This document shows, piece after piece, positions 4,465 to 8,185 of a DNA stretch of 22,348 nt. This stretch comes from a virus: positions 1 through 22,348 of IMG/VR virus record IMGVR_UViG_3300019487_000100. One strand, 5' to 3'. The notes beneath the pieces are model-generated. The model did no database searches, had not been told where the DNA came from, and saw only the letters and a program-made list of their open reading frames with translations. The first letter of the stretch is position 1, and every line of letters starts with the position of its first letter. The position numbers and the translations under genes were made by a program.

Positions 4465-5544
4465 TTAAAAACTTCCATCAAACAATTCAGGATGTAATTT
4501 CACATACATTTCAAAGTAGCCTAAACCTGTAGGATCTATACCTTTTTTCCTCAGTTGTTGTTCCATTAGTGTCAAGTCGTATTTACCTTTATCTGTTTTA
4601 CGTATACCTTCTATAAATGGATCAGTAGAATAATTATTTATAAGCTTTGATGGTATATTTTCATTAGCTCTATTACCTATATTATCCCATCTTTCTTGCA
4701 TTTTTTTAGAAGTGCCGGGAATACCTGGAGCAGTTTCTAAAGTTTGTGGGATTCTCAATTGCTCAATTGGAATATTTCCAGGAATTTCCATATTTTTAAG
4801 CATATCATCTATCATAGATGGATGATACTCTTTTGGTGCTTGTGGAGCATCTACTTGTTTTACATTTCTAAAATGTGGTGCTTTATCAGGAGAAGTCAAC
4901 CAAGTTTCCCCTGAAGGTGCACTACTTGTACGAGTTTTAAGCGCTTCTTTCAAAGTATCTAGATTTCCAAAACTTTCACCAGAAACATTTCTGGTGCTCA
5001 AAGGATTACCTTTTGATGCTTTGCTTGGTATAGTGCCCATATCAAAATAGTTACCTACATCATATAGAGTAGGCTCCCGCCCTATGTGCCTATCCGCAGG
5101 TATTCTTATTGTAGGTGTACTCTGCTCCATACCTTTTCCACCAACAGGGCCATACGGGCTTTCAAATTTAATATATGTTGTGCCGCCTGGGGTATCCTTA
5201 ACAGTTTTTATAGGTATCTTACTCTGTGAAAAAAAATTTAATATTTCTTGAGTGTCTTTAGCAGCTGGCCCTGTTGGATTATAATTAACAGGTTTATCTA
5301 AACTAGGTTGCATATTATTTATATTTGGCTTATTTAAATTTAATTTAGGCCCAACAACTGCTGCCGGCGGCATTCTAGCTCCAATAAAACCAAGTGCAGT
5401 AAGTGCTGCTAAACCTGTTTTTTGTGCTTGTTGTTTAAATGTATCTTCTTTTGTAACTTGAGGTAATAACGGAGCATTGCGCAAAGCTCTAAGCTGTGCT
5501 AAGATATCTTCATTAATATTATATGGATTATCTAACTCTGGCAA
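4465..5544 (-). CDS. Unknown 359-aa protein between terminase and portal
   Basis: I do not recognise this protein. It starts inside the last codons of the large terminase gene (17-nt overlap) and ends immediately before the portal ATG, so it belongs to the packaging operon. It has a moderately hydrophobic Ala/Gly segment at about residues 44-63 (GLAALTALGFIGARMPPAAVV), which could be a weak membrane or pore-lining helix, then a Pro/Asn-rich low-complexity region. A middle part contains GGTTYIKFESPYGPVGGKG, and the C-terminus is a compact helical part. The size and the disordered Pro-rich body suggest a virion-associated or ejected protein, but nothing proves it. Confidence 0.6.
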   Translation of the reverse strand: MPELDNPYNINEDILAQLRALRNAPLLPQVTKEDTFKQQAQKTGLAALTALGFIGARMPPAAVVGPKLNLNKPNINNMQPSLDKPVNYNPTGPAAKDTQEILNFFSQSKIPIKTVKDTPGGTTYIKFESPYGPVGGKGMEQSTPTIRIPADRHIGREPTLYDVGNYFDMGTIPSKASKGNPLSTRNVSGESFGNLDTLKEALKTRTSSAPSGETWLTSPDKAPHFRNVKQVDAPQAPKEYHPSMIDDMLKNMEIPGNIPIEQLRIPQTLETAPGIPGTSKKMQERWDNIGNRANENIPSKLINNYSTDPFIEGIRKTDKGKYDLTLMEQQLRKKGIDPTGLGYFEMYVKLHPELFDGSF

Positions 5545-8185
5545 GGTTTATACTCTTAGGTGTATCTACGGGTAAATCATCTAATATATCATGCAATACT
5601 AAACTTGTATTATCATTCTTTTTAAATAATTTCCTTACTAAATCTACGCCTGTAGGTCTATGATAAGGTCTACTCATACAAGCATATCTTATTTCATCTG
5701 GCGCGTGATCCTCACCAGTAGTATCAACATCTTCCATTTTATCTTCATTGTGTTGTAATGCTGGCAGAGTTCTTATGGCATCAACACAATTATCCATAAA
5801 ATACATCATAGGGCGCCCATCTTGACCTTTTAAGCGGGCTCTAACTTGATCCCAACCCCCCATAGCCCCATTTTTAGATACTCGTGCATTGTCAGCACGA
5901 TTAAAATAAATATGTACATGGGCGCCCATACGCTCAACTACGCTGGGGCCCCCATCTTCTTTAAATGCAGCCGGATCGATTACTCTATATGTAATTCTTG
6001 GTTTGCCGTGCTCATTCTTAGGCTCATCTATTTCTCTAAGTGCTACACCTTCAGCTATTTCTTCTGCGGTTAATTTAAGTCCTTCATTGGTGCCTTCTTT
6101 TTGATTATTTTCATTAGGTTTAGACCCATACCATTCTTTATATCTTATAATAGCATTTTTAGGGAGTAATAATTTATTATCTTTAACCATATTGGGGGAT
6201 TGAAACAACCTCCAATCTTTTTCTAATATATCACTGCTTATTTCGTGATCTTCTCCAACTATACACCACCAGCCAATGGAAAATGGACTAGCAGAGCCCC
6301 AATCCATTGACATAAATCTAGTCCAATTTTTAGGCGGAGTAAAAGTTTTAATTACATGTATTTTAGTATCCCACTCTTGAAAGAAAGCACCACTAATAAT
6401 ATTCCAATCGCCAAACAACCAAGCTTTAACTAACTCTTCGTTACCAGACATATAAAGTCTACCAATATACCCAGAATTGTTGGTATATTTATTATCTTGT
6501 ACTCCAGAAGGTATAAAAACTCTTTCAGCTGTAATAGTTTTACCTGTTATACTATCCGGGAACTTATCGTATAGTATTTTCATTCCCATAGGAGCAGGAT
6601 CTATATATCTTTGTTTAATCCATCCATGGCCTGGGCCGCCAGGATTAGCTGTCGCAATAAATCTAACAGGCACACCAGCGCCAGAACGAAGCGTAGCCAT
6701 TAATTTTCTAATAGGCTTAAAACTCGGAAAAGTACCCATTTCTTCGCAGTAAATACGGGTGTTCGCCTCAATTAAGCCACATTCACTGATATAATGGTTG
6801 GCATCTTCAATACAAAGGTCTGATACCCATGCATATTGAACGCCAACTACTTCCATCATTCCCTGACCGACCCGCTCCAAAAGATAATGTTCCTCGCCGG
6901 TATACGGGTGCACCCATGACTGCGGGGCGGGATGGGTATGTCTGGGAATGGTGTCCAACACACCCCATGGCGACAAACGGAATTTGGCTTCAACATCGTT
7001 TAGTAATGGAGGTGCATTTAAATAGGTTTTTAACTCGAAAAGAACGTGTTGATCATATTGATAAAGTACGTCATCATAATAAGATTGAGAATTTGAGATT
7101 ATTTTCCTCTCATTCTGAGCATATGAAAGCACATTGGTCTGGAAAAGGTAAAAACGATCCAATGCTTGTTGAAAAAGTGAGACTTTACGCCGCAGACCCT
7201 CGTAAAAATATTTCAAGTTTGGGACTTTCACCAACTTTAGTTGGAACAATTTGTAAAGAAAATAATATAAAATGGGTTTGCGGACCGAAGGCAAAGAATT
7301 CTGCTCGACATTTAACTGAAGATATGGTTCGTGAAGCACTACAGGAACGAACAACGATCCAAGCTGCTGCGTTTCTTGGCGTAAACGTTGGTACGCTTTA
7401 TGGTAATTTTGACCATCTTTTGAAAAAGAGAACCAAGCCGCGTTTCCTCGATCAGTATCGCGATGAAATTGAAAAGATGTATTACAATGGCCATTTAACC
7501 AAGACAAAAATCGCTGAAATTTATAAAGTATCTGATTTTTGTGTTTTGAAGACACTCCAGCGGTGGTCAAAACAGGATGCCAAACCGGAGCAACCCTCTG
7601 ACCAACAACCTGATATTTTGACTGAAATTTTCGGTGAACATTAGTTACTATACAAGGAGCTAAATATGAATTTATTTTATATAATACTTTTTTGGGGCCT
7701 AATAATGTTAATACTTTTTCTCCTACTTCTATATCTTTTATTTTTTTAAGCGCCCCATCCGCCATTTTAATTTTAGTATTCTCTTCAACACAATAAGAAT
7801 GCCCTTGATAATTCATAGCATCAGAGTCGTTTTCTAAAAATGCAAACCGTAATCTGGCTCCATTTGGGAAGCGCCACATTTTATCTATTTCATGAAAAGT
7901 AGCCCCTAGGGGCTTATATAAAACTTTACTTCGTTCTATTAGTTCAACTAACTGTGTACGTTCTCGACGTACGCAAAGCCCTATAGCATTTATTCCGTAT
8001 TGGTCTGCATGTATAGCCCATTCACCAAGCACTGCGTCACTTTTTCCACCCCCCCGGCTTCCGCCAAAAAGTGTTTCGAATATCGGACAAGATATAAGAA
8101 GCGCCTGCTTTGGTTGTGGCTTCCAAACAGTTACAGTTTCTACATTTAATTCTTTATATCTGGGAGAATTTTTTTGTGCTACCAT
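5528..8185 (-). CDS. Terminase large subunit, interrupted by an intein
   Basis: This is the packaging motor ATPase and nuclease. The 885-aa reading frame becomes about 541 aa after removal of residues 132-475, the normal size for the family. Walker A is GGSRGGGKS at 41-49. The spliced product would read AMNYQGHSY-TRIYCEEMGTFPSF, which restores the classic terminase sequence leading into Walker B (IYCEE). The ATPase coupling region follows (ATANPGGPGHGW, about 511-522). The RNase H-like nuclease has MSMDWGSASPFS (Asp at about 628), VIDPAAF (Asp about 737) and MDNCVDAIRTLP (Asp about 798 and 802). Its ATG overlaps the preceding stop (TAATG) with no clear Shine-Dalgarno, indicating coupling. The terminase call is very secure. 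Confidence 0.93.
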   Translation of the reverse strand: MVAQKNSPRYKELNVETVTVWKPQPKQALLISCPIFETLFGGSRGGGKSDAVLGEWAIHADQYGINAIGLCVRRERTQLVELIERSKVLYKPLGATFHEIDKMWRFPNGARLRFAFLENDSDAMNYQGHSYCVEENTKIKMADGALKKIKDIEVGEKVLTLLGPKKVLYKINSYLAPCIVTNVHRKFQSKYQVVGQRVAPVWHPVLTTAGVSSKHKNQILYKFQRFLSWLNGHCNTSFQFHRDTDRGNAAWFSFSKDGQNYHKAYQRLRQETQQLGSLFVPVVLHEPYLQLNVEQNSLPSVRKPILYYFLYKLFQLKLVKVPNLKYFYEGLRRKVSLFQQALDRFYLFQTNVLSYAQNERKIISNSQSYYDDVLYQYDQHVLFELKTYLNAPPLLNDVEAKFRLSPWGVLDTIPRHTHPAPQSWVHPYTGEEHYLLERVGQGMMEVVGVQYAWVSDLCIEDANHYISECGLIEANTRIYCEEMGTFPSFKPIRKLMATLRSGAGVPVRFIATANPGGPGHGWIKQRYIDPAPMGMKILYDKFPDSITGKTITAERVFIPSGVQDNKYTNNSGYIGRLYMSGNEELVKAWLFGDWNIISGAFFQEWDTKIHVIKTFTPPKNWTRFMSMDWGSASPFSIGWWCIVGEDHEISSDILEKDWRLFQSPNMVKDNKLLLPKNAIIRYKEWYGSKPNENNQKEGTNEGLKLTAEEIAEGVALREIDEPKNEHGKPRITYRVIDPAAFKEDGGPSVVERMGAHVHIYFNRADNARVSKNGAMGGWDQVRARLKGQDGRPMMYFMDNCVDAIRTLPALQHNEDKMEDVDTTGEDHAPDEIRYACMSRPYHRPTGVDLVRKLFKKNDNTSLVLHDILDDLPVDTPKSINLARVR
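6829..7644 (+). CDS. HNH homing endonuclease encoded antisense within the intein
   Basis: This 271-aa HNH nuclease probably cuts intein-less terminase genes to spread the element. The core is at about 36-102: GYVWEWCPTHP, then QHRLVMEVHL (His56), then ERVDHIDKVRHHNKIENLRLF (Asp75, His76, Asn88) and SSHSEHMKAHW, a good match to phage HNH endonucleases. Helix-turn-helix-like segments follow at about 126-146, 162-192 and 222-246 (HLTKTKIAEIYKVSDFCVL) and probably provide DNA recognition. AAAGG lies about 10 nt before ATG 6829. A second in-frame ATG at 6916 would avoid overlap with the C-terminal splicing block and retain the HNH core. The whole gene lies on the strand opposite the terminase. Confidence 0.88.
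   Translation: MHIERQLLPSFPDRPAPKDNVPRRYTGAPMTAGRDGYVWEWCPTHPMATNGIWLQHRLVMEVHLNRFLTRKERVDHIDKVRHHNKIENLRLFSSHSEHMKAHWSGKGKNDPMLVEKVRLYAADPRKNISSLGLSPTLVGTICKENNIKWVCGPKAKNSARHLTEDMVREALQERTTIQAAAFLGVNVGTLYGNFDHLLKKRTKPRFLDQYRDEIEKMYYNGHLTKTKIAEIYKVSDFCVLKTLQRWSKQDAKPEQPSDQQPDILTEIFGEH
7666..7749 (+). other. 27-codon hydrophobic ORF with strong ribosome site, antisense to intein N-block
   Basis: Seven bases after the endonuclease stop region there is AAGGAG (7654-7659), six bases, then an ATG opening a 27-residue, almost wholly hydrophobic frame (MNLFYIILFWGLIML...). It could be a tiny membrane peptide translated after the endonuclease. It is antisense to the Lys/Glu/Ile-rich N-terminal intein block, and the complement of AAA-rich codons is automatically Phe/Leu-rich, so the hydrophobicity may be an accident. 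Only the good ribosome site argues for it. Confidence 0.2.

Follow-up and report, generated by a model that had tools for sequence, protein, structure and literature searches.

The gene for the large terminase subunit (TerL) in IMG/VR virus record IMGVR_UViG_3300019487_000100 raises the question of how the same DNA can be read as part of an intein on one strand and as a nuclease gene on the other. The window, by which we mean the whole 22,348-base stretch analysed, is that record, and an intein in its TerL gene spans a gene for an HNH endonuclease in the opposite orientation. In known inteins, the endonuclease is usually part of the intein reading frame. We consider it very probable that this locus holds a mobile TerL intein with its homing nuclease encoded apart, by an antisense HNH gene nested between the splicing halves, and with the host frame held open for cis-splicing.

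The TerL intein and its empty site

The TerL precursor is an open reading frame (ORF) of 885 residues on the minus strand (5528..8185), which matched the PHROG terminase large subunit family (E 2.5e-26). It consists of an N-extein with the Walker A region, ending in GHSY (7793..8185, minus), an intein of 344 residues (6761..7792, minus), delimited by empty sites and a family alignment, and a C-extein with Walker B, starting with TRIYCEEMG (5528..6760, minus). Alignment with L002, a locus whose TerL is 62% identical, placed the insertion exactly between GHSY and TRIY, where it interrupts the strand that precedes the Walker B motif. The empty site of L002 is YQGHSY/TR (the slash marks the insertion point), where it reads YQGHSYTRVYVEEMG, and about 80 further TerL relatives share this empty site. 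The nearest TerL relatives of the window, L006 (75%) and L009 (64%), carry no intein. The splice-junction residues are those required of inteins, namely C1, N344 and Thr at +1. The insertion is in frame and its empty site in homologues is precise, as expected of an intein, and the central residues are absent from the relatives. The boundaries given for the intein in the preliminary description proved exact, the intein reading C1...AN/T, and the TerL and HNH ORFs are as described there. Another locus, L035, had been suspected from its match span to carry an insert and was rejected as a plain empty site.

In an AlphaFold model built with 25 family members, both ends of the intein came together as one Hint splicing domain. 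The predicted local distance difference test score (pLDDT) was mostly 85-97 at both ends (residues 1 to about 83 and about 290-344), whereas most of the stretch between them (residues 84-287) scored below 50. The N-terminal half (residues 1-83; 7544..7792, minus) starts with block A, CVEENTKIKM; the C-terminal half (residues 290-344; 6761..6925, minus) holds the HPYTGE motif and blocks F/G (VSDLCIEDANHYISECGLIEAN). The Hint model matched the Mtu RecA mini-intein 2imz with a VIA-align Z of 15.8 over 129 residues and gp41-1 with a Z of 15.6, and by sequence the intein profile also matched PI-SceI and gp41-1. Between the two halves, the linker (6926..7543, minus) is the antisense of the HNH core and is predicted to be disordered. 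Library searches of the window found no in-frame endonuclease in the intein and no family match for the linker, and the HNH homology lies on the plus strand, as the preliminary description had proposed. This anatomy, the empty site and the fold were computed, as were the dual-strand constraint, the recurrence and the horizontal movement described below. As a separate observation, HPY is invariant in 25 aligned Walker-B-site inteins (about 6890-6915 of the window, HPYTGE columns) and is antisense to a nearly invariant HNH Tyr (RRYTGA in the window), so that either strand may drive its conservation.

The antisense HNH gene and the reading of both strands

The HNH endonuclease gene encodes 271 residues on the plus strand (6829..7644) and matched the PHROG HNH family (E 7.4e-18). 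It carries the HNH catalytic motif region (QHRLVME ... VDHID ... HHNKIENL ... SEH; 6994..7122, plus) followed by a helix-turn-helix-rich C-terminal part, a probable DNA-binding region (7285..7575, plus). The HNH motif and the homology to phage HNH endonucleases together place the protein among these nucleases. The Pfam HNH_3 match was below the cut-off in the window HNH (E 2e-4) and above it in the HNH proteins of loci L093 and L133, and the HNH family PF01844 had no match in the window. The predicted fold is confident over residues 11-250, the lowest-confidence parts being the tail (252-271) and the first residues. A Shine-Dalgarno-like AAAGG (6814..6818, plus) lies 10 nt 5′ of the HNH ATG and is antisense to the Asp-Leu codons of block F. 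The similar AGGTC occurs at the same place in several relatives, and across the family the Shine-Dalgarno match was longer before HNH ATGs than before internal ATGs (mean 3.96 vs 2.47 nt, P 1.7e-12).

The HNH gene had been described as occupying the space between the splicing halves. It is indeed nested there but is not confined to it, as about 32 codons of each Hint half are antisense to HNH codons, in addition to the linker. This overlap falls partly in flexible parts of the HNH protein, and the confidently modelled HNH residues 11-31 are overlapped too. Likewise, the HNH stop does fall at the T-N-V-H block, but this block is not block B; in the family alignment the conserved block B is PVWHPVLTTAG (7556..7588, minus), which is antisense to the HNH C-terminal tail.

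Over 6829-7644, the HNH and TerL frames are the only open frames of the six; the two other minus frames are broken by 11 and 13 stops, the two remaining plus frames by 16 and 29. We replaced the HNH codons with synonyms in 20,000 simulations and counted the stops arising in the TerL frame. The expected number was 14.7 +/- 3.0 with phage codon usage or 11.6 +/- 2.2 with permutation, against 0 observed, and none of the 20,000 simulations gave a zero-stop outcome. Other genes of the window showed about the expected number of stops in the corresponding antisense frame. The double reading is thereby confirmed as real and as more than chance.

Selection on the two frames was compared in 17 closely related loci, leaving out the misaligned row L149. 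The ratio of nonsynonymous to synonymous substitution rates (dN/dS) was 0.195 in the HNH frame, where 57% of the differences were at third positions; read in the intein frame, the same DNA gave 1.44. Among single changes synonymous for HNH, 5.5% create a stop in the intein frame. Judging from these ratios, selection preserves the sequence of the HNH protein but seems to ask no more of the linker than an open frame. Both strands appear to code, in agreement with the preliminary description: the HNH frame is under purifying selection, the minus frame avoids stops, and the ends of the intein build a Hint fold. Biased codon usage can yield long antisense ORFs by chance, and the HNH ORF could in principle be such a spurious product, with the minus frame as the only gene. 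We regard this as extremely unlikely in view of the HNH homology (E 7e-18 to 2e-19), the free-standing homologues, the intact HNH motif, the confident fold and purifying selection that is found in the HNH frame only.

Recurrence and movement of the element

Scans for close relatives with single proteins gave one locus each, and the family was collected with alignments plus the DNA pattern YQGHSYC. This pattern led to L093, a divergent phage; it has an intein at the corresponding site and, within this intein, an antisense HNH that is 48% identical. Scans with the intein and HNH alignments gave 66 unique loci, and a later scan added more. In 66 of the 66, the HNH gene lies antisense inside the TerL intein, and the codon phase is identical throughout, with position 1 opposite position 1. 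When synonymous codons were permuted, 552 stops were expected in the intein frames of these 66 loci and the lowest of 1000 simulated totals was 496, while the observed number was 0. Antisense HNH genes in inteins are thus present in dozens of divergent phages, and an assembly error, which the preliminary description had allowed for, cannot explain recurrence in contigs of independent metagenomes. The embedded HNH ORFs comprise 91 distinct sequences (some partial), forming 59 clusters at 70% identity.

Split-intein halves with free-standing endonucleases between them are known in phage, and the locus might accordingly be read as a fractured gene, in which TerL is broken by HNH, its halves are produced apart and joined by trans-splicing, and the open minus frame is incidental. 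Wherever a locus holds both Hint halves, however, a single open TerL frame runs through the two of them, with HNH on the opposite strand, and is not divided into the two ORFs of a fractured gene. In addition, 0 stops against 552 expected is too extreme for incidental openness, and free-standing HNH relatives avoid stops to no such extent; their matching frame contained 210 stops against 245 expected (28 loci, some with the same contig twice), and none of these loci had a covering antisense ORF. A trans-spliced gene is therefore a very unlikely explanation, and we keep to an intein that would be spliced in cis across an intact frame.

The architecture is not restricted to one insertion site. 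In 8 loci, an antisense-HNH intein was found at another TerL site, the P-loop (...GGxG/C ... HN/SGKT), with the same codon phase as at the Walker B site and zero stops. The host genes tested among these loci are terminases. One of the 8, L211, comes from a Phycisphaeraceae metagenome-assembled genome and, of 8 HNH loci in a genome scan, is the one embedded in a P-loop-site intein built in this way. L190 scores above the cut-off of Pfam Intein_splicing. Among the records of isolated phages, the queries used matched no HNH or intein over its full length.

Several loci showed further features of their own. The TerL of L166:2920-7296 (minus) apparently has three inteins, at the P-loop, near Walker B (with the antisense HNH) and at a GNPGGSGH motif. 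The TerL ORFs of L173:2149-5460 and L199:2248-5841 (minus) have, beside the antisense-HNH intein, an apparent second intein (ending in HNC) near the C-terminal nuclease domain. In IMGVR_UViG_3300047478_000221, from which both L086 and L329 derive, one antisense-HNH intein appears to be divided between the ends of the contig; the N half lies at one end, and HNH and the C half at the other, which fits a circularly permuted assembly. In Streptococcus phage Javan74, an HNH match at MK449005.1 6796-7071 has no annotated gene and is possibly a hidden or unannotated HNH.

Evidence of movement came from comparing carriers with each other and with an empty allele. The TerL of L133 and the intein-less TerL of L217 are 97% identical in protein and 94% in DNA, and the mismatches between them number 18-20 per 60 nt at the insertion site but, beginning about 60 nt downstream of it, drop to 0-4 per 60 nt. 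This co-conversion-like profile is as would be expected if flanks had been copied along with the element, and suggests that empty alleles may have been converted. Furthermore, 136 pairs of related loci were compared, and in 129 of them the similarity was greater in the intein than in the extein downstream. In several pairs the inteins are 95-97% identical while the flanks of their TerL genes are only 62-75% identical; intein DNA of about 96% identity occurs in TerL genes whose flanking DNA is 62-73% identical. These comparisons point clearly to lateral spread.

The same anatomy could also hold a decayed or domesticated HNH, for example an accessory nuclease of packaging, in an intein that spreads with its phage or by general recombination and not by an endonuclease of its own. 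Assistance of packaging by terminase-adjacent HNH proteins is known (Kala et al. 2014, cited in PMC12613952), and homing cleavage by the HNH protein described here is presumed. However, a dN/dS of 0.2 does not fit decay, and such passive spread is at odds both with the near identity of inteins whose TerL genes diverge and with the clustering of mismatches at the insertion site. Some 80 relatives of the window TerL, together with the 97% amino-acid-identical relative of the L133 TerL, lack the element, and packaging therefore has no need of HNH. For these reasons we think a decayed or domesticated nuclease very unlikely, and prefer an intein that moves with its own nuclease.

Under this preferred explanation, the TerL strand would be translated through as one polypeptide, and the ends of the intein would fold into the Hint domain and splice in cis. 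The linker, read from the antisense of the HNH gene, would be unstructured and discarded with the intein. The HNH protein would be made from a plus-strand transcript and would cut TerL genes that lack the intein, at the conserved sequence coding for Walker B, whereupon repair would copy the whole element. We infer the splicing activity, the cleavage activity and target of HNH, and antisense transcription and its timing. The locus would then be under two kinds of selection at once, one strand for the amino acids of HNH and the other for a frame free of stops, with Hint residues at its two ends.

Several points weigh against this explanation. In place of the canonical penultimate His and TxxH block B, the window has A343 and PVWH; most relatives have Lys at the penultimate position, and block B is without its usual Thr. 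Non-canonical variants are known among inteins, for which the canonical form is typical and not defining. Splicing by the 344-residue intein is presumed, and the non-His penultimate residue may affect its efficiency. A Foldseek search with the HNH model gave no match at E <1e-3 and no confident whole-protein match. The Shine-Dalgarno sequence is weak or absent in the L133-like group, and no clear sigma-70 promoter was found for HNH (8 promoter-like sites against 9.7 expected), in a scan that cannot settle the promoter question. The mismatch peak between L133 and L217 could partly reflect a resistant allele. Finally, the loci were gathered by HNH- and intein-derived patterns, and TerL inteins without HNH may be under-counted.

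Comparison with known systems

The preliminary description had called the arrangement new or rarely described, and our full-text literature searches turned up no intein described with an antisense endonuclease, although a 2025 actinobacteriophage intein preprint ('non-canonical architecture') or Gorbalenya 1998 could contain such a description. The antisense-nuclease intein is real, mobile and apparently of an undescribed kind. We lean slightly towards the wider view that antisense-endonuclease inteins are a distinct, widespread and long-lived mobile class in phage terminases. This class would have at least two insertion sites, one at Walker B and one at Walker A; its nuclease would be expressed independently of the synthesis of the host protein, its linker would be the antisense of the nuclease, and in some members the block F codons would also serve as the ribosome-binding site of the nuclease.

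Such elements would offer another route to arm an intein, with nuclease and splicing separately expressed and regulated. They are a natural antisense gene overlap with opposite demands, a working nuclease on one strand and mere openness between splicing halves on the other, and a clean system for studying such overlaps, with a fixed phase, measurable constraint on both strands and free-standing controls. They also add dozens of new splicing domains, apparently tolerant of long disordered linkers. Automatic annotation could discard either HNH or TerL as an overlapping false gene.

Like canonical bifunctional inteins such as PI-SceI, the element has a Hint domain split by an endonuclease-coding region, a precise insertion at a conserved host motif, a sporadic distribution and homing-like spread; unlike them, it has a separate opposite-strand HNH gene and not an in-frame LAGLIDADG or HNH domain. 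Fractured genes, which Dassa and colleagues are said to have described in 2009 (cited in PMC7090010), reportedly join split inteins with free-standing endonucleases, the host gene being broken and its products trans-spliced. They share with our element a free-standing endonuclease gene between splicing halves and a mostly phage distribution, but their host gene is in two pieces, whereas here one frame is kept across the antisense gene. An intein in TerL itself has been reported in phiCbK, with 341 residues (PMC3556154). The ShiLan element of phage DNA methylases is an insertion that lacks a Hint domain and hides an HNH gene in another of its frames (PMC11855218). Both elements have an HNH gene hidden in a stop-free host ORF and spread selfishly, but the HNH described here is on the opposite strand and inside a recognisable intein with a Hint domain. 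Nuclear group I introns provide antisense homing endonuclease genes, of which I-DsqI is expressed and active (PMC9548176), and thus the same placement of a reverse-oriented nuclease gene within a self-splicing element. Such an intron, however, requires no open frame over its nuclease gene, whereas an intein must stay open over it, and dual coding is therefore required here.
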